Below, in pieces: positions 12,093 through 38,758 of a DNA stretch of 42,287 nt (its first letter is position 1; the number at the start of each line of letters is the position of its first letter). Below the pieces are notes generated by a model. The model was given only the letters and a program-made list of their open reading frames with translations. It was not told where the DNA came from and did not search any database. A program made the translations under genes and the position numbers. The DNA is from a virus. Location of the stretch: the IMG/VR virus record IMGVR_UViG_3300031601_001712, positions 1 to 42,287 of that record. The stretch is one strand, 5' to 3'.

Positions 12093-12488
12093 TTAAATCT
12101 TTTTTTCTGGCCACTCTTTAACTACATCTTTTGGATCAAAATGAAAAATATTTTGTGGTTCAGGCGTATCTTTATTTTTCATTTGACGATTAAAATCTAA
12201 ATCTAAATCATCAGTCATTTTTTGAATACACTCAGGTGGTTTAATGGATTTTAAATTACATGCAGATTTCAATTGTTCTCGTATCATCCTTTGTTCTTGT
12301 ATTTGTTCACTTTCTTCATCAAAATTATTTTGATATTTTTTATTAAAATGTTGTGATTGATGTTCGAAACTGTCATAAAGAGAAGCTTTTGTTACCATCA
12401 TCGAATCAGTAGTTAAATCGCTTGCCGTTGTATATGTATTAGCGGCAGTACTTTCCCAATAAAAATTATCCCATATATTATTACTCAT
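12093..12488 (-). CDS. Acidic protein of unknown function
   Basis: 131 residues. The ATG overlaps the stop of the RNA polymerase beta gene (ATGA), so it is probably translated by coupling to it. The sequence is polar, rich in Asn/Asp/Glu/Gln and Met, with a charged helical stretch (NFDEESEQIQEQRMIREQLK) and a probable disordered C-terminus. No known domain. Its position directly behind rpoB-like suggests, without proof, a function tied to transcription. Confidence 0.6.
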   Translation of the reverse strand: MSNNIWDNFYWESTAANTYTTASDLTTDSMMVTKASLYDSFEHQSQHFNKKYQNNFDEESEQIQEQRMIREQLKSACNLKSIKPPECIQKMTDDLDLDFNRQMKNKDTPEPQNIFHFDPKDVVKEWPEKKI

Positions 12489-15484
12489 TGTTGATCGACT
12501 CCAATCACTGTTAAATAAGAATTTAATAATTTAACAGATTCAGGGGTTGAGTCAAGGTCTTTTGGTTCTTCTGATTTTTCATCAATAAATCCTCTAATAT
12601 AAGCATTCTTTCTTGCAATACAATCGGATTTAGTTGTTAAAAATTCAAAAAGATTTATTGGTGCATCATGTCCAATAATACATGCAGTTTCCATTTCACC
12701 ACACCTTTGACCCCCCTTGTTTTTACGACCCCCCAATGGTTGAAGTGTTCGTTTAGCATACGCTCCAATTCCACGAGCAGAAAGTTTTTCTTCAGCGATA
12801 TGAACCATACGTAAAAAGTAAATATACCCGACTGCAACAGGATTTTTTAAGTGAGTTTTTGCTAGAGGTTCATATATTCTTTCCTTGAATTTTGTATGCG
12901 TGTATTCTAATGCATTTTTAATATCTTGAAGTTTACATGATTCAAATGGTGGCTGAATCAATGTAAGTTCATTTATGAAATCTTCAGTTATTGTCTTCGG
13001 TAGCTGTGTAGCAAATTGTGTAACATACCACTTGTCTGCCGTTTTATCAATAATATCAAGGTATGCTAACAGATACTTTTTGATTTCGTTTTGATCAACC
13101 TTATCTTTAAGTAACTGTAACATGTTTTGTTTCAGATCATAGAGTGACATTGATAATTGTAACTCAAATAATTGACCGATATTCATTCTTGATATGATAC
13201 CAAGAGGGTTGATGCAGATGTCCAAATGCCTTCCATCATCTAATTTTGGCATTTTATTATGAGGTACAATTCTCGAAATAACTCCTTTATTTCCATGTCG
13301 GTTAGCAATTTTATCACCAACTTTTACTCTTCTGAAATGAATTCCATACATCTCCACTTTAATACCATTAATCTTTTCTTTCTTTTCTTTATATTTTCCA
13401 ACAAACGAAAATAGTTCAAGCCCATTCTCTTTAATAAATCTATTGGCTTGATCTTTATCCAACTTATCTTTTATAATCTTTTTGAGAATTAACTCTTTTT
13501 CTTTCTGTTTTTCGATTGTTTTTTCTACCCAACCTTGAAATTCGGGAATATCGTTATTCCATTCATTGGCATATATATTTACCTCTGGAATAATAAATGT
13601 TTTTTCAGCTTCAAGAGGAATTGCTTCATTAAATACCGAATACATATCATCAATTGTTAGAGTTTTTAAAATTGCATAAGGACTACCTGCATTAATTGTT
13701 TCAAATTCGTTTGGTAATGGATTATATCCTTCTTTTGTTAAGGATAACAATACCTTGTGTGGTGGAATTGTAAATGATAAATCCTTAAAATGTACTGATG
13801 TTAAAATGTCGTCATTTACAAGACGATCTGATACAACAATTCCGTCTTCATAATTATTGCCATAATATACCATAACTCCAGTAAGAAGATTTCGACCAAA
13901 TTGAATACTTCCATCTTTACAGAAATTACTTTCTGCTAAAATATCTCCTGCTTTGAATTTGTCTCCTGGTTTGACATAAACATTCATAAAATCCATGTGT
14001 TCAACGTAGATTTTTCTATATGCAATATTAAATATATCAACACCACCATCTGTATAACTAACGATGAGATATTTTGTATCGATATGAATAACCTCACCAT
14101 CTTTCTTTGCTTTTTTAACAAATTGTGTATAGTCCGAATATAGATGTTCACATCCAGATTTGATCATTGGTTGGTCAAAATCTTTCAATAATATTGACTG
14201 TCTCATTTGTGAAGATGACATTTGCAAACGTGTTTGATCATCATGCTCCAAAAACGGAACCATAGAAACAGGAATTGATATTGGCTGTTTTTCTAAAAAA
14301 TCTGGTGTAAATTTTAAATTTTCATCTAATTTTACATTGGGAATAAGATTTTGTAAAACACCACAGTTATCACGATCAGGTGTATCAACTGGGCATATAC
14401 GTCCAAACATTGATGGAGTAATATCTCGTAAATGTCGTGGAATGTTTTCTCTTTTGAACCCACCAGGACCCAGCATGCTTATTCTTGAAAGTTTTGTTAA
14501 TTCTTCAATTGGATTAATTGAAAAATCAAATTGAACAATATCTGAAACATTACACTCGGATAATATTTGTGTTGAACTAATATTAAATTTTGGATGTCGT
14601 GCTGTTCTGTTTGAAAAGCATAAATCAAATACAATTTTTGATAGTTTTGCAAAGATCATATACTCAAAACATCTTACACGTTTATTTGTAAATAATGTAT
14701 CATCAATATTGCCAACTTCCATTGCCCATAATAATTCTTCAATGAGCGATCCGGTTTGTAAAAACTGACATGTTATAGGATCAATTTTTGGAATTAGATC
14801 TAATGCATAAAGAATATCTTCTCCTTTTGATTTTGCATTATATCTTGAATAAAGACGCCCTACTTCTAAAATAAAGTCATCCTGAGTGTATCCTTTCGAT
14901 TCTTCATAAAACAATTTCAAATCTTGAATTAACAATTCCATTAAATTGGTTTTATCTCGAATTTGAAATGTACTCAATGAAAATCGTTTTTCCATTTCTT
15001 CTATGTCATAATATGCCAACATAAGCAATGAAAGCGGAATTTTTTTTCCTAAGAAACTTATATTAATATTTGGTTCTTCTTTACTTTTTATAATCATTAA
15101 TGTTGCTACATTTGTTCTTAATTTAATAGATTCTCCTCTTGTAACAACCGGAATATCAAATAACTGGAATAAAGGAATCTTTTTTCTTCCGTTTATCATT
15201 ATATAATTATCATCAATAATCTTTGGAATAAAGATACTCAAATCAATATTATGATTACCTTTTTGTAAACGAATTACAAGAGATTGCTTAAGAGTTTTTG
15301 ATAGCTCGCCTGATGAAAATCTTGAATCTTTCAAATTTAATTCTGTAATTGTAAAACCGATTTCTGTAACCGGTTGAAGTATCTGAGTCGCTAAAGGTAA
15401 AATATTCTCATAATCGAGTTTCCTTAATGTGAAGATATTTTTATCTTCGTTTTGGATTTTGAAAATTGGATTAATTATGTTCAT
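12485..15484 (-). CDS. Multi-subunit RNA polymerase beta subunit (phage-encoded)
   Basis: 999 residues, against about 1340 in E. coli RpoB. Landmarks occur in order: IMINGRKKIPLFQLFD (protrusion/fork), LTKLSRISMLGPGGF then HLRDITPSMFGRICPVDTPD (rifampicin-pocket/fork loop 2 region), YEDGIVVSDRLV, VGDKIANRHGNKGVISRIVP (active-site lysines and catalytic-centre contacts), MNIGQLFELQLS, and C-terminal YAKRTLQPLGGRKNKGGQRC plus GEMETACIIGHDA (clamp/switch 3). It forms the catalytic core with beta'. The beta chain is one uninterrupted polypeptide, unlike the split beta of phiKZ-type phages. Alpha and omega equivalents are not visible. A nine-codon frame (15491-15520) ends directly before the start. 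Confidence 0.95.
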   Translation of the reverse strand: MNIINPIFKIQNEDKNIFTLRKLDYENILPLATQILQPVTEIGFTITELNLKDSRFSSGELSKTLKQSLVIRLQKGNHNIDLSIFIPKIIDDNYIMINGRKKIPLFQLFDIPVVTRGESIKLRTNVATLMIIKSKEEPNINISFLGKKIPLSLLMLAYYDIEEMEKRFSLSTFQIRDKTNLMELLIQDLKLFYEESKGYTQDDFILEVGRLYSRYNAKSKGEDILYALDLIPKIDPITCQFLQTGSLIEELLWAMEVGNIDDTLFTNKRVRCFEYMIFAKLSKIVFDLCFSNRTARHPKFNISSTQILSECNVSDIVQFDFSINPIEELTKLSRISMLGPGGFKRENIPRHLRDITPSMFGRICPVDTPDRDNCGVLQNLIPNVKLDENLKFTPDFLEKQPISIPVSMVPFLEHDDQTRLQMSSSQMRQSILLKDFDQPMIKSGCEHLYSDYTQFVKKAKKDGEVIHIDTKYLIVSYTDGGVDIFNIAYRKIYVEHMDFMNVYVKPGDKFKAGDILAESNFCKDGSIQFGRNLLTGVMVYYGNNYEDGIVVSDRLVNDDILTSVHFKDLSFTIPPHKVLLSLTKEGYNPLPNEFETINAGSPYAILKTLTIDDMYSVFNEAIPLEAEKTFIIPEVNIYANEWNNDIPEFQGWVEKTIEKQKEKELILKKIIKDKLDKDQANRFIKENGLELFSFVGKYKEKKEKINGIKVEMYGIHFRRVKVGDKIANRHGNKGVISRIVPHNKMPKLDDGRHLDICINPLGIISRMNIGQLFELQLSMSLYDLKQNMLQLLKDKVDQNEIKKYLLAYLDIIDKTADKWYVTQFATQLPKTITEDFINELTLIQPPFESCKLQDIKNALEYTHTKFKERIYEPLAKTHLKNPVAVGYIYFLRMVHIAEEKLSARGIGAYAKRTLQPLGGRKNKGGQRCGEMETACIIGHDAPINLFEFLTTKSDCIARKNAYIRGFIDEKSEEPKDLDSTPESVKLLNSYLTVIGVDQQ

Positions 15485-15561: not shown

Positions 15562-18231
15562 TCATTTTATCATTTCCCCTTTTAATATTTTATCCATTAT
15601 TCCTGAATAACGCCCTTTATACATAATTCCTTTTAATATACTACGTTTTGGATTTGAAAATGCCATTGCCAATATCCAACTTTCTTTATTTGGCACACTC
15701 TGGATACTGAAATATGATGGTTTAACTTTATCTCTATCTTTAAGCAATCTCCACTTACGTGAGTTTTTCCACATCAATTGAGCAACTACACATTCAAAAT
15801 GAACATGATGAATATCTTTATTATATACTGCAAATAAATCATGTACGATATCTGTATATGTTTTACCTTTAAATCTATGAAGAAGTTCTGCAACTGTTGC
15901 TAAATCCCCAATAATATCTTTTTGTTTCATACCTCGTTCGTCAGCATCATCGCCTTTAATAACAGCTGATCCTGATGTATGAAATGTTCTTAATACCAAT
16001 TGAGTTCCTCTCTCACCAAGTGTTTGTGCAGCAATAATTCCTACGAAACGACTATTAATATATTTATAAAGATCTCCGTAACATGTTTTGCATAAGTTAG
16101 GTGATTTACAAAGAATCGGACTTCGAATTTTTATTACTGTTCCAACTAATTCTTCACAATTTGTATCTGTTATTTTAACTAATTCACCGCCCCTTGACAT
16201 GTTACGACCAATGAGCATTTTTGCTTTTTTACTTGACTTTACATTAACTTCAAGGAAATCCGTTGTGCCACAATCATCAAGAGTTTCGTCAATTTGCAAA
16301 TTAGCACATGTGAATATCAATTTTCTTGATAGATACCCACTTGTTCCTGTGTTTAATGCAACATCAAGAAGACCTTTTCTACAACCATTGGTTGATAAAA
16401 AGAATCCTTCTGGAGTTAATCCTTGAACTAAACTGTTTTTAATTGGAGTTGGTAAAATTTCCCCATCAAAGTTTGAAATAAACCCACGGGTTAGTACCAT
16501 CTGTTTTGCTTGATCCCAACTTCCCCTTGCTCCAGAGTCAATCATATATGCATAAGGAAATGTTTTTTTCAATTTTTCAATTATATCTGGGCTATTTGCT
16601 GCAACTAATTGATCCCTAATTTCTGGTCTATTATAAATTGATGCCCTGATTTCGTCTGCTCCATCAAAATCGAAATCATCAAGAGACATTGTACATCCCA
16701 TAAGTGTTGCATATTTAAACCCAACTCTTTTGATATTGTCAAGTGTATGTGCTGTTATTTGCTCTGGGTATGAATCTTTAATTTCATTTAATATTAAAAG
16801 AAGTTTCTTTTCATTAACAACCTCTCTGATTTCAGGATATCCATCTGGTAAGCAATCATTAAATAATTTAAATCCTTCTTCTGGGGTTTCAAAGTCTGGT
16901 GATGTTATAAAATATATACCAAGAATAATATCTTGGCTTGGAGTAGTTGTTAATTTTTGATTTGACGGGCTACTTAAATTTTTAGTAATGAACATCTTTT
17001 CACGAATCTCTTTTTTCGCTTCTTCACTAATTGGAATATAAACAGCCATTTGATCCCCATCAAAGTCTGCATTAAATGGAGGGCAAACCAACGGATGTAT
17101 CTTAATAACTTTGTCAAGAGTTATTTTAATATTAAATGCAAGCATCCCCAATTTATGAAGAGATGGTTGTCTATTTAATATACAAACTTCATCTTTTGTT
17201 ATTTCTTCGCATATTTTATATAATATTGGATTGTTGGTTTCAATACATTTATCAACAAAGTCAATTGATTTATTTAATAGTTTAAACTTACCAATTGCGA
17301 TTATTTTTTTAGCAATAGGCAATTTAAATAATTCTAAAATCATAATATATGGAAGAACACATTGATCAAGACTTAATGTTGGATCGGGTGTTATAACTGC
17401 TCGACCAGAAAAATCAATACGTTTACCTAAAATATTACCACGAATCAATCCTTCTTTTTTTGCCATCTTTTCTAAAATTCGATGATATAGTTCATTAACA
17501 TCTTTTTGTAATTGTTTAAAATATGTATAATATAAATTTTTATCTCGAATAATATCAACTACTGTATCTTTCATTATTTCTTTTTTTGTTAATATCTGGA
17601 CATAATAACGATTAATTTTATCCATTAATTGCTTTCCGCCCGATGCTGCAGATGAAGGTCTTAAGTCTGGAGGAAGAACAATAATTTGATTTATTAAAAG
17701 GCTTCCAATATTATCGTAAATTAACTTCCACTCAGGAATTCCTTCTTTTGAAAGACCGCTAGATAGATCTTCAATTAATTTATATATTGCATGAGTTTTT
17801 TCCCAATATTCAGTTCCTTCAGGTTTTTTATCTTGATCGGAACCAATGATATGTTCAAGTCCATCCATATATAAGTAACTTTTTTCATTTCTCATCAGCT
17901 CATCAATAGCATGTTTTAAAGTTTTTCCACCAACTTCTACAAGTAAATCATAGAAAATTGGGTTAACTACTGGAATGGGCAAATTTATTTTGGCAAAGCG
18001 TGTTCTTCTTACATCGCTATTAACAACATCAACTCCACATATTGCGCATTTTCCTCCCGATTTTGATAAGCCATAGTAGGTTCCGCACTGACATGTGTAA
18101 TTTTTTATTGGACCAAAAATTTGCTCAGAGAATAAACCCTGAGAATGAAATTTTTTCTTTCCGAATACTTTTAGAGTAGTTACTTCCTCTAGATTTTCAC
18201 AAAATTGTGCGTAATCTAAAATTTTTGGCAT
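15562..18231 (-). CDS. Multi-subunit RNA polymerase beta' subunit (phage-encoded)
   Basis: 889 residues, much shorter than E. coli RpoC (about 1407), but both ends are recognisable. N-terminal clamp (GLFSEQIFGPIKNYTC) carries a zinc site C47-x-C49 and C62-x2-C65; then lid/rudder region, GRAVITPDPTLSLDQC, LNRQPSLHKLGMLAFN, and the catalytic NADFDGDQMAVYIP with the Mg-binding Asp triad at 387-393. The trigger-loop region IAAQTLGERGTQLVLRTFHT is intact, and the C-terminus (FECVVAQLMWK, SIQSVPNKESWILAMAF, GIMYKGRYSGIMDKI) matches the bacterial C-terminal clamp. It is single-chain and compact. Start ATG has AAGGAGAA. Transcribed just before the beta gene, after the ubiquitin-like cassette. Confidence 0.95.
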   Translation of the reverse strand: MPKILDYAQFCENLEEVTTLKVFGKKKFHSQGLFSEQIFGPIKNYTCQCGTYYGLSKSGGKCAICGVDVVNSDVRRTRFAKINLPIPVVNPIFYDLLVEVGGKTLKHAIDELMRNEKSYLYMDGLEHIIGSDQDKKPEGTEYWEKTHAIYKLIEDLSSGLSKEGIPEWKLIYDNIGSLLINQIIVLPPDLRPSSAASGGKQLMDKINRYYVQILTKKEIMKDTVVDIIRDKNLYYTYFKQLQKDVNELYHRILEKMAKKEGLIRGNILGKRIDFSGRAVITPDPTLSLDQCVLPYIMILELFKLPIAKKIIAIGKFKLLNKSIDFVDKCIETNNPILYKICEEITKDEVCILNRQPSLHKLGMLAFNIKITLDKVIKIHPLVCPPFNADFDGDQMAVYIPISEEAKKEIREKMFITKNLSSPSNQKLTTTPSQDIILGIYFITSPDFETPEEGFKLFNDCLPDGYPEIREVVNEKKLLLILNEIKDSYPEQITAHTLDNIKRVGFKYATLMGCTMSLDDFDFDGADEIRASIYNRPEIRDQLVAANSPDIIEKLKKTFPYAYMIDSGARGSWDQAKQMVLTRGFISNFDGEILPTPIKNSLVQGLTPEGFFLSTNGCRKGLLDVALNTGTSGYLSRKLIFTCANLQIDETLDDCGTTDFLEVNVKSSKKAKMLIGRNMSRGGELVKITDTNCEELVGTVIKIRSPILCKSPNLCKTCYGDLYKYINSRFVGIIAAQTLGERGTQLVLRTFHTSGSAVIKGDDADERGMKQKDIIGDLATVAELLHRFKGKTYTDIVHDLFAVYNKDIHHVHFECVVAQLMWKNSRKWRLLKDRDKVKPSYFSIQSVPNKESWILAMAFSNPKRSILKGIMYKGRYSGIMDKILKGEMIK

Positions 18232-18244
18232 TATCAGTTTCTCC

Positions 18245-18463
18245 TTAAATTGAAAATTTTTCTTTCATGAGATCTGCTACCTCTTTGAGATGTTGTTTGA
18301 TTCGTTTGGATATAAGTCCATCTATATGTGGTAAAATTGCCAAAACAATTTGAGCAGCATCTTCTTCTTTCAATGTTACATCTAATAAAGTAAGTTGTTT
18401 ATCAAGCTCATCCTTTATTAATGTTCTTAGATAATCTTCCATTATATTTGACTTGTCGCTCAT
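18245..18463 (-). CDS. Small helical protein of unknown function
   Basis: 72 residues, ATG start with AAGGGAGA. Strongly helical and amphipathic (YLRTLIKDELDKQLTLLD; EEDAAQIVLAILPHIDGLIS; KRIKQHLKEVADLM). It could be a coiled-coil partner protein. It sits between the 157-residue cassette protein (5 bases away) and the beta' gene (13 bases away), so it is cotranscribed with both. No omega-subunit signature is visible, though an RNA polymerase accessory role cannot be excluded. Confidence 0.55.
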   Translation of the reverse strand: MSDKSNIMEDYLRTLIKDELDKQLTLLDVTLKEEDAAQIVLAILPHIDGLISKRIKQHLKEVADLMKEKFSI

Positions 18464-18467
18464 ATTT

Positions 18468-18941
18468 TTAATCTCCCTTATTCATTTGCATACTCATTGA
18501 GTTCATTTTTTTATATTCAAGATGTGCTTTTGCTGGCATAAAAAAACAACTGTCAAGATAATAAGTTTTAATATTTGTTAAAATCAATTCATAATACACA
18601 GATGAATATTGAACACCTTTTTTATAGTCAGGCAAACAATATAAATTTGTATCTGGATCTCTATTAGGATGAAATCCATGTAATGCAATTGTTTCTACTA
18701 TATCATTAAATGTTGTTACTGTAAAACCATAAATGATATATTGTGGATGTATAGAAATGATTTCATAAGCATTTTTATTTTTTATTACACGAGTTGGTGT
18801 GATTTGCCCTTCATAGATATAAGTTTTTTCTATTATGGGCAAATCATTGTTACGGTTCCATAAAATCTTTGGTCCAATTATAAAGTCATTCCTTTTATGC
18901 GGCGCCTGTTTCTTCCAATAATTCGATAAATGTTTTCCCAT
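18468..18941 (-). CDS. Cassette-associated protein with an HPN-x9-C motif, possible second E2-like or partner protein
   Basis: 157 residues. ATG with AGGAGAAAGT directly upstream; it overlaps the end of the divergent ThiF gene by 47 bases, so coupling is likely. Most of it is unfamiliar. Around residues 90-115 is HGFHPNRDPDTNLYCLP followed by DYKKGVQYSSVYYEL; HPN followed by a CL pair recalls the active-site region of E2 enzymes, and 157 residues is E2-sized. Against that, the segment before HPN looks helical (TTFNDIVETIAL) and not the four-stranded meander of an E2. The better E2 candidate in this cassette is at 22958-25531. No metal site or membrane segment. Confidence 0.4.
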   Translation of the reverse strand: MGKHLSNYWKKQAPHKRNDFIIGPKILWNRNNDLPIIEKTYIYEGQITPTRVIKNKNAYEIISIHPQYIIYGFTVTTFNDIVETIALHGFHPNRDPDTNLYCLPDYKKGVQYSSVYYELILTNIKTYYLDSCFFMPAKAHLEYKKMNSMSMQMNKGD

Positions 18942-19812
18942 ACTTTCTCCTTATAGTAACTATATAATTTGACACGCCTGGTTGTATTTTGACCAAATCT
19001 GAAAGTCTTTTTATAACATCCATTGATGTATTTAAACTTCCAGTTGGAATTAATGCATATTGAGTTTCTGCCACCTCTGGCATTTTTTTAAATAATTTCT
19101 GTATTATATTTGTGGGTTTTTGTTCACCAATATATATATCTATGGGTTGGATCTTGTTTAAATTTAATATTGGTTTGATATGATCTTCTATACATTGAAG
19201 CCTATTTGTCATATCTGATTTTTCATATATAATATCCATTTTATTTTCCATGGATCTTGATATGGCTTTTTCCATGATCGATGGTAGTATATCAAGATCA
19301 ATTTGTTGAATTAAATTGTTTTTCATCATATCAAAAATTTCTATGCTATCAATTACTTGTGCTGCATAAAAAGACGCTTTATTGATTTCATTTTGTGTTA
19401 ATTCAATTGTATACGCACCATCATAAGAACAAGCATTTTTAACTTGTTTTCTACAATCTATCATTAAAATACGTCTTGATATATAAAATCTAACATCGAT
19501 TTCACTTGTTCTATCACATACAACATCCCGACAATCAATGACAAGATTGCATGTAGGGAGTGATGTTTTTCCTTCAACATATTTACGGTTAATTTTAGTG
19601 ACAGCAACATCATCGTTTATAATATCTGCTAATGCATCGACTTTATATTCGCCAACTTGAAAAGAATTATATATTGATGTAAAGGTATTTTTACTTTCAA
19701 TTACATCTGGATCTATAATTACTATTTCTTTTACTTGATTAAGTTCCGATATGTGTTTGCATAAAAACCCACCTAACGTTCCTATTCCAATTATTGCTAC
19801 TTTACGAAACAC
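18895..19812 (-). CDS. Divergent ThiF/E1-like adenylyltransferase
   Basis: 305 residues, starting at GTG (19810-19812) with AAGGAGAT upstream; no ATG fits the conserved first strand. The Rossmann-type loop is KVAIIGIGTLGGFLCKH (about 4-20), followed by EIVIIDPDVIESKN with D34, D36 and N42, and a VGEYKVDAL element with the ATP-binding Lys. The Arg normally found after that Asn (NxxR) is missing, and I see no clear catalytic Cys crossover loop. An extra roughly 150 residues of unknown fold follow (KASFYAAQVIDSIEIFD; IQPIDIYIGEQKPT). It may be an inactive partner for the canonical E1 at 20438-21124, or a distinct adenylating enzyme. Confidence 0.75.
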   Translation of the reverse strand: MFRKVAIIGIGTLGGFLCKHISELNQVKEIVIIDPDVIESKNTFTSIYNSFQVGEYKVDALADIINDDVAVTKINRKYVEGKTSLPTCNLVIDCRDVVCDRTSEIDVRFYISRRILMIDCRKQVKNACSYDGAYTIELTQNEINKASFYAAQVIDSIEIFDMMKNNLIQQIDLDILPSIMEKAISRSMENKMDIIYEKSDMTNRLQCIEDHIKPILNLNKIQPIDIYIGEQKPTNIIQKLFKKMPEVAETQYALIPTGSLNTSMDVIKRLSDLVKIQPGVSNYIVTIRRKYGKTFIELLEETGAA

Positions 19813-19841
19813 TAAGCAAATCTCCTTCCGAATGGATTTTT

Positions 19842-19861
19842 GGGGGACCCGAAGGTCCCCC
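19842..19861 (-). other. Intergenic cUUCGg tetraloop hairpin
   Basis: An 8-bp perfect stem (GGGGGACC with GGTCCCCC) closed by a C(TTCG)G tetraloop when read on the minus strand, lying between the stop of the ubiquitin-like gene (19887) and the GTG start of the divergent ThiF (19812). It is followed by five A residues, not a U-run, so it is unlikely to be a simple terminator. UUCG hairpins of this kind protect 3' ends of abundant messages in T4; here it would favour the ubiquitin-like transcript over the genes behind it. Confidence 0.75.
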
Positions 19862-19886
19862 TTATACTTAATTCATAAAAGATTGC

Positions 19887-20366
19887 TTAGCAGCCCTTTT
19901 TTCCTGCTGGTTTCAGATACTCAAGAGTATCACCGGGTTTTAGAACATACTCGGCTCCAATTTCTTTTCCATTTACCAGACCAGTGGAAAGTCGATCCAC
20001 ATTCAGAACCTCACGGAGAAAATCCCCAACTTCTTTTACAGTTCGTCCTGCAACAGGGAAGTTTCCGGAAGAAGCACCACAGGACACCTGAATGGTGGTG
20101 GATGTTTTGAATCCGAAATCAGCTCCGGGTTTGGTAAGAACGCTTTGTGCTTTAAATGCCACTCCACCCATTGCGGCAGGGGTTTTTTCAGCAGGGGCCT
20201 TGGATACAGTTGCACTGGATGCACCGAACTTGCTCAGGATAGCATCAACTACAACGCTTTTGGCTTTTTTGGTCATACCGGGAATGGCAAGTTCGTCTAC
20301 GCACATTCTTTTAAGAGTGACTGCAGTTTTGGTTTCGAGTTGTTCTTTGGTGTAAGTTGTTCCCAT
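19887..20366 (-). CDS. SAP/HeH-like plus beta-grasp ubiquitin-like protein ending in GKKGC
   Basis: 159 residues, ATG with AAGGAGAT. Residues about 5-48 (YTKEQLETKTAVTLKRMCVD, then LAIPGMTKKAKSVVVDAILS) form a helix-extended-helix of SAP/HeH type, usually a nucleic-acid-binding module. A Pro/Ala-rich linker (50-85) leads to a beta-grasp domain (about 89-155): TIQVSCGA strand, VKEVGDFLREVLN helix, TGLVNGKEI, YVLKPGDTLEYL, as in ThiS/MoaD/Ubl proteins. The tail is PAGKKGC: a Gly-Gly-like KG exposed by removing one Cys, similar to the GTKG end I associate with PRTRC protein C. The flanking JAMM enzyme could do this. G+C is near 45-55% against 25-35% around it, consistent with heavy expression or recent origin. 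Confidence 0.75.
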   Translation of the reverse strand: MGTTYTKEQLETKTAVTLKRMCVDELAIPGMTKKAKSVVVDAILSKFGASSATVSKAPAEKTPAAMGGVAFKAQSVLTKPGADFGFKTSTTIQVSCGASSGNFPVAGRTVKEVGDFLREVLNVDRLSTGLVNGKEIGAEYVLKPGDTLEYLKPAGKKGC

Positions 20367-20437
20367 TTTTTAAATCTCCTTCGTTGTGTTTAGTTTTTTT
20401 TGTTTGTACTTCACTTTGTAATCAATATTAATTACTT

Positions 20438-21124
20438 TTATTTTACGATTCGAATCTTCGAGTTGGAGTTCATACTTAAAATATCAAAGTAGACCTCCGA
20501 CCGATCATGCTGGTCCTTTACAAAAGAATTATAAAATAGCCAACACATCAGCGTTGCAACGCCCAGATTTGTAAAATATAACTGGGGTTCTGAATGTGAT
20601 AGTTCCTCGCATGACATTTCGTCTGGTAACTTATCATTAGGATTTGCAATTTCTGGATGATATGCACATAGATCAGGTGTTAAATTTACACCTCCTTTCC
20701 TGACATACAGTTGCGCATTACCATCTGTTAATTCATTCCCACCAGAAATAACAGTAACATTATTTAAATTTTTACAGTAATTATTAATGATCATTCTGGA
20801 TTTATGATTATCTACACATATAAATACTATTTTATCTTCTTTAATAACTTCGTTTATATTTGATTCATTAATATAAGAATCAAATACATCGAATTCAATG
20901 TTACTAAATTTCATAGCAAGTTCATCAGCTTTTGTTTCAGCTTTATTACCAATACCGCTGAATTCTTGACGATCGAAATTTTTCATTTCGTATTGGTCTC
21001 CATCAACCAAAAGTATTTCTGCTTCATAATCTTGAGAGAAATTTAGAAACCGACAAAGACGTTCTGCAAGTATAGTTCCGACTCCACCTAAACCAATAAT
21101 TGTAATATCAATGGGTTGTGTCAT
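20438..21124 (-). CDS. E1/ThiF-type ubiquitin-like activating enzyme
   Basis: 228 residues, ATG overlapping the JAMM gene by 17 bases, with GGAGGGG upstream. A textbook ThiF fold: ITIIGLGGVGTILAERL (ATP loop 11-16), ILLVDGDQYEMKNFDRQ with D41, D43, N49 and R52, GNKAETKADELA (Lys), then FICVDNHKSRMIINNYC, the DN-x3-R signature that follows strand 6. A catalytic Cys candidate is C172 in DEMSCEEL; C153 in DLCAYHP is another. It would adenylate the C-terminal Gly of the beta-grasp protein encoded next. The length and single ThiF domain match PRTRC-type ThiF proteins. Confidence 0.88.
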   Translation of the reverse strand: MTQPIDITIIGLGGVGTILAERLCRFLNFSQDYEAEILLVDGDQYEMKNFDRQEFSGIGNKAETKADELAMKFSNIEFDVFDSYINESNINEVIKEDKIVFICVDNHKSRMIINNYCKNLNNVTVISGGNELTDGNAQLYVRKGGVNLTPDLCAYHPEIANPNDKLPDEMSCEELSHSEPQLYFTNLGVATLMCWLFYNSFVKDQHDRSEVYFDILSMNSNSKIRIVK

Positions 21125-22958
21125 TATTACCCCCTCCGAACACCTTTCGCATTTTATCCATCAAAGAACTTTTCGATTTTAATGAACTCAATTGATCTGA
21201 CCTTTTCGGATCAGGTATCCGTTCAAGATTTTTGTCGGCATCTGCTGCAGCATTTAATATATCTTCATGCTCTTTATCTGATTGGTCAAGAAAAGCCCCT
21301 GAATCTGATCTCATTTGATGTTCTATTCCAATAGTTTCTACGGTAATTGGAGAATTGCAGTTTTCACATATCCCAAGCATTTTGATGCTTTCAATGGAAT
21401 TTTTTGCCCCACAGTGATTACATATCATAGTTTCTTCATCTTCAGATGAATAAGTAAGTTCTATTTTATTATTACAATGAGGACATTCTCCTTCAACTTC
21501 AATTTCAGATTCTCCAAATGTTGCTTGGCAATGGGGGCATACCCATTCAAGTTCATCTTCACAATCCAAAACATCATCAGGTAATAGAGTTTGACAAAAG
21601 GGGCAGCATTGATCAGTTTCCAATACTAAAACCTGATTACTACATGAAGGGCATGTAATAAATCCTCGTTGCTCCGGTTGCTCAAATTCATCATTTTTTA
21701 CAACAAGATCTTTTGTCATAACTGGTTCATTTTTATATCTATCCGTGAGATCTTTTTCATCTATAAGGGTTAAATGTCCATCACTTTTACATTTTGGGCA
21801 TTTTATATCCGCATCAACTGTTGTGAAAATAACATGACATTTTTCACATTGATACATTTCTTCTTCATATTCTACACCTTGTATCTCATTCATAATCTTA
21901 AGATTTCGATGTTTGCATGATAAACATGGATTTGATTTATCATAAGGTTTTTCTGTTGGAGATGTTGTTGCAGGTGTTGTTGAAGATGTTGTTGGAGGTA
22001 ATGGTTTTTGTCCAGCGAATCCAGGTATTGCTATTCGCTGCCCATTTTTTCCAATTGGTCTATCAACTTGATCCCATGCTTGAGGATCATAATGACCTCC
22101 CCAACCATATACACCTACATTTCTTCTCCAGTCTTGTTTAGCATAATTACCAATTCCATATCCTCTATATGAATATGTATATATTCCACGTTGGACCATT
22201 TTCATCCAGTTCTTATTGAATGTTCCTTTGGCTTTTGATACTTTAAATTGGTATCGCTTATCTAACACTCTGTTTTTATATGAGGTTCTGCTACTGGCTT
22301 TTTCATCCAAAACCATTTTACCAGTTGCATCGGGTTTAAATATTTTTGTCATATATTTAGTTTCACTTTTATCAATATCTCTGGTTTTATCCAACCCCAG
22401 CATATAATCTTCAGGAGTAACTATAAACCGATGACCGTTAGCAACGATTGATGCAGATATACTTATTTCATCATCAAGCACATGACCAAATGTAATATGG
22501 AGTCCATCAAATGTTTTCTCGTCATTATCATCAGTCCCAGAATGAAAAGCTGACATTCTAGCATGACTGTGAATATCTCCGATCATTGTATATCCATCCA
22601 TAGTAATTCCTCTATTATAGTCACATGCTCCAGCAGTCACTTTTTGAGTTGGAGGAACAATTTTATATTTGCCTGTAGATTCATTATAAAAAAGTAACAC
22701 AATTGCTTCCCCATGATATTCTTGACATACTGCTTTAAAGAAATCAGCAATTTTCGCTCCCCATTGTGCTGGGATTGGATTGATGTACATTCGTGCCATT
22801 GTATTGACACTATTCAAGATTGATATATTTTTGACTGGAGCAATACTTTCCATTACTCCTAATTTCTTTTTCAAAAAGACTCCCTCTTTAGCGACAATAT
22901 AATATATATCATCATTTGGAAGTTCTTGACTTCCATCATTTACAACAACTTTAAACAT
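21108..22958 (-). CDS. JAMM/JAB metallo-isopeptidase with C-terminal zinc-ribbon array
   Basis: 616 residues, ATG overlapping the preceding stop as TAATG, with AAGGAGAA. The JAMM motif is complete: E84 (HGEAIVLLF) and H130-S-H132-x7-S140-x2-D143 in IGDIHSHARMSAFHSGTDD. Such enzymes cut ubiquitin-like tails or isopeptide bonds using zinc. Residues about 230-345 are Gly/Tyr/Pro-rich, ending in a Thr/Pro/Ser linker. From about 345 to 535 come successive CxxC pairs (CLSC/CEKC/CPKC; CPSC/CPFC; CPHC/CPHC; CNHC/CENC), at least four zinc ribbons. The last 80 residues are acidic and helical, ending in a Gly/Asn-rich tail. The function fits deconjugation or precursor processing, with ribbons binding partners or nucleic acid. 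Confidence 0.88.
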   Translation of the reverse strand: MFKVVVNDGSQELPNDDIYYIVAKEGVFLKKKLGVMESIAPVKNISILNSVNTMARMYINPIPAQWGAKIADFFKAVCQEYHGEAIVLLFYNESTGKYKIVPPTQKVTAGACDYNRGITMDGYTMIGDIHSHARMSAFHSGTDDNDEKTFDGLHITFGHVLDDEISISASIVANGHRFIVTPEDYMLGLDKTRDIDKSETKYMTKIFKPDATGKMVLDEKASSRTSYKNRVLDKRYQFKVSKAKGTFNKNWMKMVQRGIYTYSYRGYGIGNYAKQDWRRNVGVYGWGGHYDPQAWDQVDRPIGKNGQRIAIPGFAGQKPLPPTTSSTTPATTSPTEKPYDKSNPCLSCKHRNLKIMNEIQGVEYEEEMYQCEKCHVIFTTVDADIKCPKCKSDGHLTLIDEKDLTDRYKNEPVMTKDLVVKNDEFEQPEQRGFITCPSCSNQVLVLETDQCCPFCQTLLPDDVLDCEDELEWVCPHCQATFGESEIEVEGECPHCNNKIELTYSSEDEETMICNHCGAKNSIESIKMLGICENCNSPITVETIGIEHQMRSDSGAFLDQSDKEHEDILNAAADADKNLERIPDPKRSDQLSSLKSKSSLMDKMRKVFGGGNNDTTH

Positions 22959-25531
22959 TAAGTTCTCCTTTGATTTAAGTATGAGTTTGGCATGTGATTT
23001 TCAAATACGTCATAAGAATGTAAATTTAAAAATCCTTTAAGAATGCCAGTTTCCGCGATTTTAGCCGGTATTATTCTTGGAGCTGGAATACAATCTAATT
23101 TACATTCTTTTGTCATACACTGATCAAGAACATAAGATTCGTTATAAGAATGAAGATTTTGTATTCGCAATGCTCTCAATGCTCTTGTTGTAGATGGATT
23201 ATATAATAAATAACCATAGGAATCTTTAAAATCTCTTGTTCCGTTTACAATATCTCCAGCTTGAAATTTGATTTTTGATAAATCTAATGGAACATGATTA
23301 AGTGTTTCCCATTGTTTTGATTTTAATGGTATCTTTTTGAATTTTTCAATAACATCATTATACCATAATGTACATCCATTTGAGCAAAGAACTAATGGTT
23401 CCCTGCCAGTATCGATAATGAAGGCAACAATAATATTAACATCTTTTTTCGGAAAACAAGAAATTCCAGCAACTTCTGATATAATTTTAGTTCCTGCTAA
23501 TAATTCATCAATTTTATTTGTTACTTTTCTGATTTTACCAGTATTTATAATACCATACCTTCCATCGATATATTTTGATTCTGAAATATTTCCTTCTTTG
23601 TCACTCAGTATAAAATGAATATCACCACAAGCTTCATTGTATTTAAATCCTTTAATCATTTTTACTGTCAACACATCTAATGGATTTTCCCAGTTAGCAA
23701 CAACTACTTTGTCTCCAATATAAAATTCTGTATCAAAATCCGCACCTTCAACAAAGAATCTATTATCTTTAATTAGGGATTTTGTATAGCTTCCTTTTAA
23801 TTTACTTAAAGTATAGTAGTTTTCATATATAAGAATTCCATTAACTCCCCAAGCTCCTATTTCTTTTAGGTCATCCTTATAGTTTAAACCTGGTAAAGTA
23901 AATAATCTTCGACCAACTCTAAATGCCCCACTGATTGGTTTTACTTTATCGATTTTATATATATTTTTTCTATCGGGGTTATTGGATAACTCAAGTGTTT
24001 TATAACGTCCTTTTAACTTTGAGTTATTATTTCGAAATTTTGCAACAATTTTCTGATTGTCAACGATAATAGAATCAAATTTCATTATATGACCACTAGT
24101 CATACCACCGTCATATCCATGTTCAGTTATAATAATATATTGTTCATTTTTATTTAACACAACCCCATTGAGTTCAGGCTTATCAAGTTTGAACTCAATT
24201 GCATCAAGGTTTGAGCTAAGATAATAATCATTCCCCAGTTTGACTTCAACTATATCAGTGTTGTCCATACCACGACTTTTTCTTATATAGTCTACTTTTT
24301 TATAGGATTTTTGATCCCCTTGTGTAACAACGAGAATTTTACCTGGGGTGACAATTGTTTTATTTGCAAGAGTTATTTGACTAACTCTTCTTTGTTTGGT
24401 GATTTGTTTTATTAAGAATTTATAACAATTTTTTGTTAATTTCATCATAGATAGTTTATCATTAATAGCAATTTGAATATATTTAATATTGCTTCCATCT
24501 GGAAACCCAACAAATGAGGAAATAAAAGCTATCTTTCCGCTTTTAGTTTTAAAAGAATCCCCAACGTTCATATTGGTTTGATCATCAAGATACATACCTT
24601 GAGCAATATCAAAGAATAACTTAGATGTTCTTTTTGAACGCTTAGAGACTTTCATTTCAAGTCCAGTATCATATGGTCTACAAAACACATCAGTAAGTTG
24701 TTTATATCCCATTGTTTTTTTGTTTTTCAATGAGAATGATTTTTTTATATGTTTTATGCGCTCCCCAATTGTATGCTCGATTTTTAACCAATCTGCATTA
24801 TAGATAAACATTGGGTTTTCTTGGCTCATATATTGCCACTCAAGATAACTATTTAAAATTGGAACGTCTCTATATGAACGGTAATTATATGTATAATCTG
24901 TGTTAAATGTGGCAGACCACCATACCATAATTGCATGTTGAACAGTTGCAGTTAATGACTTGCATCTTTTACAGATTGCATCACCAAAACAAACGAATCC
25001 GCTATCTGATATATTACACATTGGAATTTTGAGTAGATAATCTGATAGTCCAGTCATTTGTTGTGTTCTTAAAAATATTTGAGCACATGATACTTCATTA
25101 TATTTGGTAATATAAAGTATAAAGATGACATATGGGAATGCTAAAGTGAAAGAATAAGGAGGTGAATTTTTGCTTAGCCAATCTTTATATCCATACAAAT
25201 CTAATTTGTTAACTTGACGTAGACGTGATATCTCACTAGTTGCACTCATATTTGATTTTATAGTTCTGTATGCTGGAGGTTCCTCAATAACAACCATATA
25301 TCCAGAGTCCATTTCTTCAATGTATCTACAATTAGGAGGCATTATAATACCTTCAACATTTGACGATACGACTTGATCAATATATTCAGATGCCAACATA
25401 GTTTTCTTTTTAATAGTTGGAATTGACTCTCCTTCATGTTTTTTAGATGGGTATTCTGAATAAAATAAGCTTGCATATCTTCCATTCAATCTAATTTCTT
25501 CAATCAAATCATCGCTTCTGGTTTGTACCAT
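22958..25531 (-). CDS. E2-like (PRTRC protein B / Prok-E2_D type) domain fused to a long beta-barrel-rich region
   Basis: 857 residues, ATG with AAGGGG. In the first 220 residues, MPPNCRYIEE, YMVVIEEPPAY, SFTLAFPYVIFILYI, LKIPMCNISDSGFVCFGDAI and AIMVWWSATFNTDYTY appear in the order seen in prokaryotic E2-like proteins of the PRTRC-B group, with C181 in GFVCFG as predicted catalytic Cys. The following 600 residues are unfamiliar and beta-rich, with repeated vGD-type starts (NMNVGDSFKT; EFYIGDKVVVANW; FQAGDIVNG), suggesting several SH3-like barrels. A fused tail of this size on an E2 is unusual. It is the first gene of the cassette; the JAMM gene follows by TAATG overlap. The E2 call is by motif order and context. 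Confidence 0.65.
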   Translation of the reverse strand: MVQTRSDDLIEEIRLNGRYASLFYSEYPSKKHEGESIPTIKKKTMLASEYIDQVVSSNVEGIIMPPNCRYIEEMDSGYMVVIEEPPAYRTIKSNMSATSEISRLRQVNKLDLYGYKDWLSKNSPPYSFTLAFPYVIFILYITKYNEVSCAQIFLRTQQMTGLSDYLLKIPMCNISDSGFVCFGDAICKRCKSLTATVQHAIMVWWSATFNTDYTYNYRSYRDVPILNSYLEWQYMSQENPMFIYNADWLKIEHTIGERIKHIKKSFSLKNKKTMGYKQLTDVFCRPYDTGLEMKVSKRSKRTSKLFFDIAQGMYLDDQTNMNVGDSFKTKSGKIAFISSFVGFPDGSNIKYIQIAINDKLSMMKLTKNCYKFLIKQITKQRRVSQITLANKTIVTPGKILVVTQGDQKSYKKVDYIRKSRGMDNTDIVEVKLGNDYYLSSNLDAIEFKLDKPELNGVVLNKNEQYIIITEHGYDGGMTSGHIMKFDSIIVDNQKIVAKFRNNNSKLKGRYKTLELSNNPDRKNIYKIDKVKPISGAFRVGRRLFTLPGLNYKDDLKEIGAWGVNGILIYENYYTLSKLKGSYTKSLIKDNRFFVEGADFDTEFYIGDKVVVANWENPLDVLTVKMIKGFKYNEACGDIHFILSDKEGNISESKYIDGRYGIINTGKIRKVTNKIDELLAGTKIISEVAGISCFPKKDVNIIVAFIIDTGREPLVLCSNGCTLWYNDVIEKFKKIPLKSKQWETLNHVPLDLSKIKFQAGDIVNGTRDFKDSYGYLLYNPSTTRALRALRIQNLHSYNESYVLDQCMTKECKLDCIPAPRIIPAKIAETGILKGFLNLHSYDVFENHMPNSYLNQRRT

Positions 25532-25534: not shown

Positions 25535-25912
25535 CTATCCCCTTAACATTTTAAGTTTTTTCGCAAATTGTGTTAAAATCTTTTCTGCCTTATTTTCGTT
25601 AATAACCCACACTTTTCTTCGACGAGTTGGTATCATGTCTTCCGGATCTTCTGAAATTCGATATTTTTCTAATGTGCTATAAATTGCAATGTATGATTCT
25701 TCATCTTCTCTTTCTAAAGTTAAAAAACCAATTTCTTTATCATTTCTTCCCGGCACATTCAGTGATAAAAAGACTCGTGGACCTCTTGGTTTTAATTCTT
25801 GATATTGAATTGATGATGATTCTTCTTTAATAATATCATCACATATAACTCTTACTTGCTGAGTTAAATCTACATCTTTCAATTCACGTAATAAATCTTT
25901 TAAAATTCCCAT
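25535..25912 (-). CDS. Small protein of unknown function
   Basis: 125 residues, ATG with AAAGGTGA. The N-terminus is helical and acidic, the centre has a strand-rich run (RVFLSLNVPGRNDKEIGFLT), and the C-terminus is basic and helical (KAEKILTQFAKKLKMLRG). No family recognised. It lies 3 bases before the 857-residue E2-like gene, so it belongs to the same transcript. Confidence 0.55.
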   Translation of the reverse strand: MGILKDLLRELKDVDLTQQVRVICDDIIKEESSSIQYQELKPRGPRVFLSLNVPGRNDKEIGFLTLEREDEESYIAIYSTLEKYRISEDPEDMIPTRRRKVWVINENKAEKILTQFAKKLKMLRG

Positions 25913-25918: not shown

Positions 25919-26251
25919 TCACCTTTTGAATGGTCTAATTTTAAACCTTTGATTTTGATCTCCATCTAGTTCCAACCAGTCAACCTGTTTAAATGGAACT
26001 GATCTCCAATCTTTCTTTTCTAAATCGTACACATGGATAATACTACTTGATTGTAGAATTTTTAATATTTTTGGTAAATTAACTGTTTTGGGGTGTTGTG
26101 TTTTTGGAATTTTTGAAAAATCCAATGTGCATTTCATAATCCTTATTGTTCCATCTTTTTTAACAAACTTGACTTTAGCTTCTCCAGCAGAATAAAGCTT
26201 TACCCAAAAGTCAATTGCACTACGTAAAATATCATTTTCTGTCTGCGGCAT
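25919..26251 (-). CDS. WYL_2-type (DUF2693-like) SH3-barrel protein
   Basis: 110 residues. VKFVKKDGTIRIMKCTLDF, then IIHVYDLEKKDWRSVPFKQV: the pattern 'vkFtKkDGt.R.m.cTLd ... vyDle...WRs....v' is what I know as the WYL_2 / DUF2693 Sm-like SH3 barrel, common as a stand-alone small protein in large phages. These are thought to bind nucleic acid or ligands, but the function is not known. Its start overlaps the end of the radical SAM gene by about 20 bases, so it is coupled to it. No additional domain. Confidence 0.65.
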   Translation of the reverse strand: MPQTENDILRSAIDFWVKLYSAGEAKVKFVKKDGTIRIMKCTLDFSKIPKTQHPKTVNLPKILKILQSSSIIHVYDLEKKDWRSVPFKQVDWLELDGDQNQRFKIRPFKR

Positions 26252-27302
26252 TGATTACTCCCTCCCGTTTATCTATATGGACTAAATCGCCTTCTCCATC
26301 ATTACCATGATTATCAATATATTTACTCATCATTAAACATGAGTGATTGCACAACTCACAATAGTTTTGTTTATCTATACATAACAAATTATAAAATTCT
26401 TTTGAGACTAAAGATTCAGTTTCAAACAGATTTCTTATATGTACATGTGGTGTTAATGAACCTTTAATACGAAGACATAATCTCATAGTTCCATCTGCGT
26501 CAACTGTTACATTATGAATACCTCTTTCAAGTTCACAGTCAAAATTTGATGGTAATGTATCAAACATCTTTGGAATTAATACCTCCTTCATATGAATATA
26601 TAAATTATCATCATTCATCATTTGTGAAAGCATGTTAGCCAACTCCCATGATTTTTGAACAAGTTGATCTGTTTTTGTCACATTTGAAAAATCGTAATGT
26701 GAGTTTTTTGCAACATCCACAAATGTAATATCACTGTATATTTCATGTTTACTGAGATTGCTTACAAGGTCATATAAGAACTTTTGATTTTCATTCATTA
26801 CTGTTATTTCAGCAACGACATCATTTACATCGCTTTTAGCTTGAATCTCTTTTAATCGTTTCATACCTTCAATACTTTTCTTGATTCTATCCTTACTATT
26901 ATAGTTAGGATTGTTGAATATTGGATCTACTGAACTTGTAAACCCATCAACATAATCAGTTTCATTAAATAACCGTTTTATCAAAGGTTGAATTTCAGGA
27001 GTGTTGTTGCTTATAACTGTATAATAAATTTCATTCTCATTACAAAAATTTATAATCTCTGGTAAATCTTTTCTCAATAATGGCTCACCACCATACAAAA
27101 TTATGAATATTTTGGGATTGTGTTTTTTAAATGCCATTAGTGCATCCGTAACAGTCTTCGTTGACATTTCTTCTTTTGTATAATGCTCCATTCGTGGATA
27201 CTGGCTTGGCATCCCCGGATAATTTCTAACGAGTGCACAATAATCACAATTAAGATTACATCTTCTTGTAAGTAGAAAATTAACAATTCTTATTTTACTC
27301 AT
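26232..27302 (-). CDS. Radical SAM enzyme with C-terminal Cys cluster (SPASM-like)
   Basis: 356 residues from the ATG at 27300-27302, chosen over a GTG two codons upstream because AGAGG lies five bases before it. The [4Fe-4S]-SAM motif is TRRCNLNCDYCAL with C15, C19, C22 (Cx3Cx2C); IILYGGEPLLR is the SAM-binding GGE motif. The C-terminus contains VDADGTMRLCLRIKG and then CELCNHSC, a layout like the SPASM/twitch auxiliary-cluster region of peptide-modifying enzymes (about 350-450 residues). It is too long for QueE, and lacks QueE's usual form. The gene directly behind the TNSSS protein (14-base overlap at its longest start) suggests they act together. Confidence 0.8.
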   Translation of the reverse strand: MSKIRIVNFLLTRRCNLNCDYCALVRNYPGMPSQYPRMEHYTKEEMSTKTVTDALMAFKKHNPKIFIILYGGEPLLRKDLPEIINFCNENEIYYTVISNNTPEIQPLIKRLFNETDYVDGFTSSVDPIFNNPNYNSKDRIKKSIEGMKRLKEIQAKSDVNDVVAEITVMNENQKFLYDLVSNLSKHEIYSDITFVDVAKNSHYDFSNVTKTDQLVQKSWELANMLSQMMNDDNLYIHMKEVLIPKMFDTLPSNFDCELERGIHNVTVDADGTMRLCLRIKGSLTPHVHIRNLFETESLVSKEFYNLLCIDKQNYCELCNHSCLMMSKYIDNHGNDGEGDLVHIDKREGVINAADRK

Positions 27303-27675
27303 TATCACCTCTAATTATATATTTATACCATTTGTTTTCAAACTTCTTTGAAACATTATTATCTACTTCTAAACGAACCACAATATTTTTATTAACAAGA
27401 CCTTTTTTACAAATATTATATGAATATGGGGACATGGTTATAAATTTAGGCCCCATAGTTTTTGATACCCAATCTAAAGGACCATCATTTGCATGTTCGT
27501 TAAGTTGTTTGATGTTTTTTAATGTACCATATATTCTAGCTCCTTCATTACCAGCTTCAGGAGATCTATCTAACTCTTTAATTTCATCTTGTAAATCTGA
27601 TAGTTGTTCTTTTTCAATTGATAATATAAAAGATGTTGATGAACTATTTGTTACAAAGTCAGTTTTTATTTTCAA
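27295..27675 (-). CDS. Small protein with N-terminal TNSSSTSF motif
   Basis: 126 residues, starting at TTG (27673-27675) with GAGG seven bases upstream; no ATG precedes the conserved motif. The N-terminus KIKTDFVTNSSSTSFILS is a conserved N-terminal signature found on many short bacterial and phage proteins whose role is unknown. The rest is mixed alpha/beta with no other motif. It immediately precedes, and overlaps, the radical SAM gene. A shorter protein at 31313-31609 begins with a near-identical motif. Substrate or partner of the radical SAM enzyme is a reasonable hypothesis, not established. Confidence 0.6.
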   Translation of the reverse strand: MKIKTDFVTNSSSTSFILSIEKEQLSDLQDEIKELDRSPEAGNEGARIYGTLKNIKQLNEHANDGPLDWVSKTMGPKFITMSPYSYNICKKGLVNKNIVVRLEVDNNVSKKFENKWYKYIIRGDNE

Positions 27676-31341: not shown

Positions 31342-31609
31342 AAGGAACTCCAATCGAAGTTAAAAAAGTTATCATATCAAAATTATCCATTGAGCAATCC
31401 CCTTCGATTTTAGTGTCTGTAACATCAATGTTCCATTTATCGCTATTATGTAAAAAACCAAAATTCAACTCCGGGTTTTGTTTATGAAGCATTGTTGCTG
31501 CTTCAAGATGATCAATTATTAATACTTCTTGTATAGTAGATACATCACACCTCATAATTGTAAATGATGCACTTGAGCTATTTGTAATAAAATCTATTTT
31601 GAATTTCAT
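31313..31609 (-). CDS. Small protein with N-terminal TNSSSASF motif
   Basis: 98 residues, ATG with AGGTG and overlapping the homing endonuclease stop. The N-terminus KFKIDFITNSSSASFTIM matches that of the protein at 27295-27675 (KIKTDFVTNSSSTSF), while the rest differs. The remainder is an acidic mixed alpha/beta sequence of unknown fold. Both carriers lie within 4 kb of each other and of the radical SAM gene. Function unknown. Confidence 0.6.
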   Translation of the reverse strand: MKFKIDFITNSSSASFTIMRCDVSTIQEVLIIDHLEAATMLHKQNPELNFGFLHNSDKWNIDVTDTKIEGDCSMDNFDMITFLTSIGVPYDKIQQHHS

Positions 31610-38563: not shown

Positions 38564-38758
38564 TTAAAATTCCATTCCATATTTTGTTTTATTAAATTCT
38601 CTTCGGATTTGTGGCGATACAATTTTCATTTGATTTTTCATAGAATCAAGATATTTTAATTTTTCTTTAATGTTTAGAGTGTCAGACCACAATTGCTGTT
38701 CTAAACAACATTGTCTACATGTTACTTTAACAAGACAATTATCACATGGGGGTTTCAT
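38564..38758 (-). CDS. Small Cys-rich protein (PCDNCLVKVTC)
   Basis: 64 residues from the ATG at 38756-38758, which overlaps the helicase-HNH stop as ATGA; an in-frame GTG further upstream is less likely. PPCDNCLVKVTCRQCCLEQ forms a probable zinc site, and resembles the protein at 31147-31341 (SPCTKCLVNTTC). The rest is helical and charged. Function unknown. Confidence 0.55.
   Translation of the reverse strand: MKPPCDNCLVKVTCRQCCLEQQLWSDTLNIKEKLKYLDSMKNQMKIVSPQIRREFNKTKYGMEF

Follow-up and report, generated by a model that had tools for sequence, protein, structure and literature searches.

The 42,287-base virus record IMGVR_UViG_3300031601_001712 of IMG/VR, analysed here over its full length ("the window"), carries on its minus strand a run of genes (18468-25531) whose products very probably form a working cascade for the conjugation and deconjugation of a ubiquitin-like protein. 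The run holds genes for an E2-like protein, a JAMM metalloprotease, a putative activating enzyme (E1a), a ubiquitin-like protein (Ubl) and a second, divergent ThiF-fold protein (E1b). A first-pass annotation, made from the letters of the window alone, had proposed a complete cassette of this kind in a phage. All five open reading frames lie on one strand where it had placed them, the gene set and its order recur in other viral contigs, and the catalytic residues are invariant, which speaks for the proposal. To our knowledge, ubiquitin-type tagging in bacteria has so far been known as plasmid or defence equipment.

The window encodes a terminase large subunit (1875-3530; PHROG E 1e-37) together with bacterial-type RpoB and RpoC, and its source is therefore a tailed phage, most likely of bacteria. 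It is likely a fragment of a longer genome. When a close relative was sought among 50,697 phage records, every RpoC match stayed below 60% identity, the best among the matches listed having about 26-35%.

Distribution, conservation and selection

With E1a, JAMM and Ubl as queries, viral contigs yielded 74 loci, nearly all of which keep the gene order around the cassette; after a further scan that started from more distant E1s, 76 distinct E1 lineages (clustered at 95% identity) were counted in all. The cluster, which the first-pass annotation had suggested looking for in related phages, thus recurs across viral contigs. E2, JAMM, E1 and Ubl are all present in at least 66 of the 76 lineages, several of the others being cut by contig ends, and 49 of the 66 full four-gene lineages possess E1b and an adjacent RpoC as well. 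The contigs bearing the cassette reach 527 kb.

The cassette genes are under purifying selection: dN/dS against close relatives is ~0.05-0.09 for E1a, 0.09-0.12 for Ubl and 0.06-0.1 for RpoC, and ~0.1-0.35 for E1b, E2, JAMM and a 157-residue protein encoded next to E1b. Identity of the five cassette genes follows that of RpoC across all pairs (r 0.76-0.87), a correlation that we read as a sign of common descent and not as a probability, because the pairs are not independent. Given that the gene set and order recur in dozens of contigs, that catalytic residues are invariant and that dN/dS lies well below 1, the cassette is not a product of chance.

These patterns bear on the purpose of the tagging. 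The phage might use it in conflict, marking proteins of host defence or of competing phages in a reversal of Bil and CBASS, a use compatible with the chemistry of a cascade. Bacterial Ubl-type conjugation acts in anti-phage defence in CBASS (PMC10097602), and Bil conjugation does so as cited in PMC13373217. The multiple E2s of some jumbo phages suggest several targets, and the faster evolution of E2 and JAMM leaves room for such a role. However, a cassette that is inherited with RpoC, and whose E1a and Ubl evolve slowly, is unlike the patchy accessory genes of conflict, and we consider this purpose possible but rather unlikely.

Other large contigs hold smaller sets that lack E1b and RNA polymerase; two of these cassette-bearing contigs, L057 (177 kb) and L059 (459 kb), gave no match to RNA polymerase beta prime. 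Several phages whose cassette is not linked to RNA polymerase carry two to three E2 genes per E1. Three E2-like genes stand around one E1, JAMM and Ubl in four contigs of large phages (L164, L166, L171 and L114). Beyond the viral contigs, related E2-JAMM-E1-Ubl sets are present in contigs of metagenome-assembled genomes (MAGs) labelled Paceibacterota and Ignavibacteriae, and JAMM-E1-Ubl in Planctomycetota, the labels being those of the binning as filed. L091, a contig of 4.9 kb that was filed under a MAG of Heimdallarchaeota, bears a phage-type cassette with 53% E1 identity and is probably a misbinned phage contig.

The E1-like, JAMM and E2-like proteins

E1a (20438-21124, minus strand; 228 residues), a ThiF-fold putative Ubl-activating enzyme, matches ThiF at E 1e-18 and PRTRC_ThiF from end to end in single-sequence searches, and ThiF/MoeB models too. 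Its motifs are GLGGVG, DGD (D41/D43), NFDRQ (R52) and DNHKSR (D105, N106, R110), followed by a catalytic-type cysteine, Cys172 (codon 20609-20611, minus strand). In the alignment of the first set, all 52 sequences have G11, G13, G16, R52, Q53, D105, N106, R110, C172, Q181 and N186, and the cysteine is likewise invariant in relatives from bacterial MAGs and other phages. The E1 expected of a ubiquitin-like cascade, with both ATP-binding motifs and a catalytic-type cysteine, is thus present.

The JAMM metalloprotease (21108-22958, minus strand; 616 residues), with zinc ribbons in its C-terminal half according to Pfam matches, displays the motif E84 and H130-S-H132-x7-S140-x2-D143; E84, H130, H132, S140 and D143 are invariant in all 51 aligned sequences of the first set. 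It matches PRTRC_A (TIGR03735) over nearly its full length with 54 bits (E 2.7e-16, against 1e-13 in the first family search; cut-off 101.8), and a search of 14 control genomes with this model gave no match. For Borg elements it has been proposed that JAMMs act against tagging by the host through deconjugation (PMC12660748), and the JAMM could be the active part here as well, directed against Ubl conjugation of the host, with E1, E2 and Ubl as a mere decoy or inhibitor. A decoy would need neither the invariant catalytic residues of E1 and E2 nor the constraint on E1a, which is the strongest of the set, and we regard this explanation as very improbable beside a working cascade.

The E2-like protein (22958-25531, minus strand; 857 residues) consists of an N-terminal E2 domain (about residues 1-265) and some 570 residues of tandem SH3/Tudor-like barrels, and its AlphaFold2 model has a mean pLDDT of 84. 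The domain bears the motif N173-x7-C181-F-G, with the putative catalytic Cys181 encoded at 24989-24991 (minus strand); N173, C181 and W205 are invariant in 45 of 45 aligned sequences. Searched singly, the protein matches PF14460 (Prok-E2_D) weakly, at E 0.018 and below the cut-off. When the alignment of the N-terminal domain was compared with Prok-E2_D-type proteins of other phages and plasmids, hhalign gave a probability of 97.3, with cysteine placed on cysteine and the FNxD motif matched. A domain of Prok-E2_D type with a conserved cysteine is supported by these profile comparisons, and the E2-like domain proposed in the first-pass annotation agrees with this family match. The C-terminal part gave Foldseek matches to the tandem Tudor folds of SETDB1 and 53BP1, and the tail a weak match to NusG. 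With the full model, the best Foldseek matches were tandem Tudor folds, and the E2 domain was not singled out.

E1b (18895-19812, minus strand; 305 residues) had been annotated as a second ThiF protein. A match to ThiF (E 5e-10) upholds the fold, and an alignment of 44 sequences retains the glycine-rich loop, D34, K57, D93, C94 and D119, but the arginine of NLxRQ and the DN-x3-R motif are absent from it. Because these residues have been lost, E1b is probably not a second active E1, and it may well be a non-activating E1-like partner or adaptor (pseudo-E1). It ends in ETGAA (18895-18912, minus strand), and most relatives end in TG(A/G)A; this terminus is possibly a signal for C-terminal recognition or degradation.

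The ubiquitin-like protein and its hairpin

In the AlphaFold2 model, built with 44 sequences, the Ubl (19887-20366, minus strand; 159 residues) has an N-terminal Rho_N/SAP-like helical domain (20223-20354) and a C-terminal beta-grasp domain (19893-20147). Family searches with the window Ubl as a single sequence gave no firm match. Its relatives, searched singly against Pfam, matched TGS in 10 of 18 cases and ThiS in 6 of 18, at E up to 0.05. Foldseek against the PDB placed TGS and MoaD best and TtuB, ubiquitin, FAT10 and ISG15 lower, none of them under E 0.001. The N-terminal part matches Rho N-terminal domains, with E 0.017 for a PDB profile and a Foldseek probability up to 0.99 in viral models. 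The beta-grasp fold predicted earlier for this protein is thus borne out by the model, its Foldseek matches and the TGS/ThiS matches of relatives, and we hold with moderate confidence that the Ubl would be a beta-grasp modifier with a C-terminal glycine.

The Ubl ends in PAGKKG-C, that is, in Gly158 (codon 19893-19895, minus strand), which we propose as the conjugation terminus, and a single extra cysteine. The tail reads (A/S)GxKG in most lineages, and G-x-K-G is invariant in the alignment. Nothing follows the tail glycine in 39 lineages and one residue does in 16; elsewhere up to eight residues or a further complete Ubl follow. Two tandem Rho_N-Ubl units are found in L048 and three tandem Ubls in L154, in both cases joined at KG, and Bacillus phage KLEB27-3 has a tetra-Ubl gene (L012:2718-3425) whose units are joined in the same manner. 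Among close Ubls, those of L057 and L059, one stops at VKG and the other carries eight extra residues. Variable extensions beyond the glycine and tandem Ubls joined at KG are typical of a ubiquitin-like precursor that a protease processes. A candidate second Ubl in L082 and L084 was rejected, being a lone Rho_N-like domain.

In both sequence and fold, TGS/ThiS and MoaD/TtuB come nearest to the Ubl domain, E1a also matches ThiF/MoeB models, and a radical SAM gene stands upstream in nearly all RNA polymerase-linked loci. Such features would fit a sulfur carrier of the ThiS/MoaD/TtuB type, for which E1a makes a thiocarboxylate used in thiolation of nucleosides or cofactors, perhaps with the neighbouring radical SAM protein. 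However, no sulfur-carriage role is known for an E2-type protein with an invariant cysteine; the scanned window proteins included no recognised thiotransferase, cysteine desulfurase or rhodanese; the radical SAM gene found no match in L056, L057 and L059, which are core E2-JAMM-E1-Ubl loci; and tandem poly-Ubl fits a modifier. Sulfur carriage therefore appears improbable to us, and conjugation remains the preferred reading.

Just past the Ubl stop lies a GC-rich, very stable hairpin (19842-19861, minus strand) of conserved position, with the sequence GGGGGACC-UUCG-GGUCCCCC, in which UUCG forms the loop. A strong hairpin occupies this place in nearly all RNA polymerase-linked loci, with stem sequences that differ between loci; its minimum free energy averages -24.5 kcal/mol (median z -3.7), and the corresponding values behind nine other genes range from -6.5 to -12.3. 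By stabilising the transcript ahead of it or lowering read-through, the hairpin may cause more Ubl to be made than downstream products. A conserved hairpin at this position fits extra expression of the Ubl, since a modifier is consumed.

Relation to known systems

Operon class 6d of Iyer 2006, known from bacteria and mobile elements, comprises a Ub-like protein, JAB, E1, E2 and an alpha-helical protein (PMC1779556). By gene content we equate this class with the PRTRC cassettes (TIGR03735, TIGR03736 and TIGR03738) of plasmids and integrative elements, to which the first-pass annotation had likened the window. The likeness holds for the component types: both share the four kinds of enzyme and modifier, an E2 of family D and a Ubl ending in KG, and with PRTRC the window has in common a JAB with an extra N-terminal region under the PRTRC_A model and an E1 matching PRTRC_ThiF end to end. 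In contrast to class 6d/PRTRC, the window set adds Rho_N on the Ubl, a Tudor-like tail on the E2, zinc ribbons on the JAMM, E1b and the linkage to RNA polymerase; it is borne by tailed phages, and no helical protein was identified in it. A histidine C-terminal to the E2 cysteine is absolutely conserved in class 6d, whereas none is invariant through residue 219 in our alignment, where the FNxD motif is found instead.

Membership in PRTRC was rejected. E1a reaches 44 bits against PRTRC_ThiF (TIGR03736; E 3e-11, full length), short of the cut-off of 144.75. For the Ubl there was no NCBIfam match to PRTRC_C (TIGR03738) in the window and no TIGR03738 match in seven sister records, and a Ubl profile compared with PRTRC_C-like Ubls, whole and as the domain only, showed no relation. 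No ParB-related gene (TIGR03734) was found in the window, which is a fragment, or in the record of L004, and matches elsewhere were weak and below the cut-off. In an E1 tree built by a quick method, whose deep forks are unresolved, PRTRC-like sequences of phages and plasmids form one branch (support 97) and the RNA polymerase-linked phages largely another (95). To judge from its genes, the cassette probably works like the conjugation and deconjugation cascade of class 6d/PRTRC, yet it is not a PRTRC member.

PRTRC-like E2-JAMM-E1 sets occur in the named phages Bacillus phage KLEB27-3, Vibrio phage D69 and Salmonella phage Arash and, with these, in Cytobacillus and B. velezensis plasmids (together L012-L021). 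They share the E2-JAMM-E1 order with the window, and several have poly-Ubl or a KG-tailed Ubl, like relatives of the window. They differ in their separate, supported E1 branch and in their Ubl, which lies upstream, is fused to JAMM or was not identified; no linked RNA polymerase genes were found in the stretches read. The annotation of Arash (L015) lists its E1-like and E2-like genes among the structural proteins. No match was obtained when plasmids were searched with the E2 of Arash.

Bil, Bub and type II CBASS (Cap2/Cap3) share E1/E2/JAB chemistry on a Ubl or a substrate tail, but are bacterial defence or stress operons, unlike the phage cassette of the window. Among the PADLOC defence models, E1-E2 models were matched weakly by the two ThiF proteins (best E 1e-9), which were the only parts of the cassette to match; the E2 had no match. 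The lambdoid tail assembly genes I and K likewise place a Ubl and a JAB in a phage, but no E1 or E2 is described for them (PMC1779556), whereas the window has the full cascade. A tail-assembly reading was rejected for that reason, and no tail or JAB-NlpC/P60 genes were identified in the run; orthology to thiamine/molybdopterin genes was rejected as well, matches to ThiF/MoeB fold models lying far below the cut-offs. Neither kind of orthology, named beforehand as evidence that would speak against the cassette, was thus found.

Genomic neighbourhood

On the minus strand the genes follow in the order radical SAM, WYL_2, 125-residue protein, E2-like, JAMM, E1a, Ubl, E1b, 157-residue protein, 72-residue protein, RpoC and RpoB, spaced by short gaps or overlaps. 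Starts and stops overlap between E2 and JAMM at 22958, between JAMM and E1a at 21108-21124, and between E1b and the 157-residue gene at 18895-18941. The cassette had been described as lying immediately upstream of the RNA polymerase genes. Bacterial-type RpoC (beta prime; 15562-18231, minus strand; 889 residues; PF00623 E 1e-35; TIGR02386 439 bits) and RpoB (beta; 12485-15484, minus strand; 999 residues; PF00562 E 9e-51; TIGR02013 362 bits) do lie downstream, but not directly adjacent, for the genes of the 157-residue (18468-18941, minus strand) and 72-residue (18245-18463, minus strand) proteins, both present in most RNA polymerase-linked loci, stand between E1b and RpoC.

Upstream, assigned to the run by synteny, are genes on the same strand for a 125-residue protein (25535-25912), a 110-residue WYL_2 protein with an Sm/SH3-like barrel (25919-26251; PF10902 E 2e-10) and the radical SAM protein (26232-27308; PF04055 E 3e-14), whose counterpart in nearly all RNA polymerase-linked loci was mentioned above and which has matches below the cut-off to PapB, MoaA and viperin models. 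HNH endonuclease domains are present in window genes at 10159-11211, 31606-32622, 34022-35056, 36333-37238 and 38755-40632, one of them C-terminal to a helicase and another N-terminal to a QueD-like protein, so that homing-type endonucleases are numerous.

Proposed mechanism and targets

From gene content, motifs, conservation, selection, synteny, the fold of the Ubl and the family of the E2 we infer the chemical steps, the direction of JAMM action, the role of E1b and the targets. The JAMM would trim the residue or residues beyond the conserved Gly158 of the Ubl, and in some relatives cut tandem poly-Ubl into units. E1a would adenylate Gly158 of the trimmed Ubl and take it up as a thioester on Cys172, from which it would pass to Cys181 of the E2 domain, to be attached by the E2 to target proteins. 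The Tudor-like tail of the E2, and perhaps E1b too, would choose the target, and the JAMM would remove the Ubl again, reversing the mark.

Several observations weigh against this picture. The Ubl model has modest confidence values (mean pLDDT 73, pTM 0.35) and gave no Foldseek match under the threshold named above; the C-terminal motif is G-x-K-G and not Gly-Gly; the UBC fold of the E2 rests on a family match and secondary structure, without a Foldseek match of its own; and the scores of the window Ubl, E2 and JAMM, like that of E1a against PRTRC_ThiF, lie below curated cut-offs. As regards the choice of target, lineages exist that carry the cassette without an adjacent RNA polymerase.

Our leading guess, weakly held, is that the targets may be transcription or nucleic-acid-associated proteins, among them the RNA polymerase complex of the phage. 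The guess is based on the linkage to RNA polymerase, the Rho_N domain that the Ubl carries and the NusG/Tudor-like tail of the E2. Since the smaller sets lack RNA polymerase, this linkage is not required. More speculatively, and with less confidence than for a role in conflict, a jumbo-phage lineage could tag transcription complexes, with its own or the host's RNA polymerase, by means of a nucleic-acid-binding Ubl as a core step of its life cycle, while other lineages would have expanded to several E2s per E1 and so to a regulated tagging network.

Conclusions

Tagging systems of this type from bacteria and mobile elements, and the class 6d gene set, were known already. New are the phage setting, the fusion of Rho_N to the Ubl, the tandem Tudor-like tail of the E2, the pseudo-E1, the link with RNA polymerase and the conserved hairpin behind the Ubl gene. 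We found no report of a complete cascade encoded by a phage in the open literature, subscription journals being mostly outside the scope of that search, and a survey of jumbo phages (PMC7824862) nowhere mentions JAB, ThiF, E1-like or E2-like proteins.

The cassette is a conserved, vertically kept part of the viruses that bear it, a large group of uncultured viruses of bacteria, and in most of them it is linked with the genes for the viral RNA polymerase. It would give these viruses a protein-tagging pathway of their own inside bacterial cells and be a source of compact E1, E2, JAMM and Ubl enzymes, and it would offer a natural setting in which to test why phages tag proteins.

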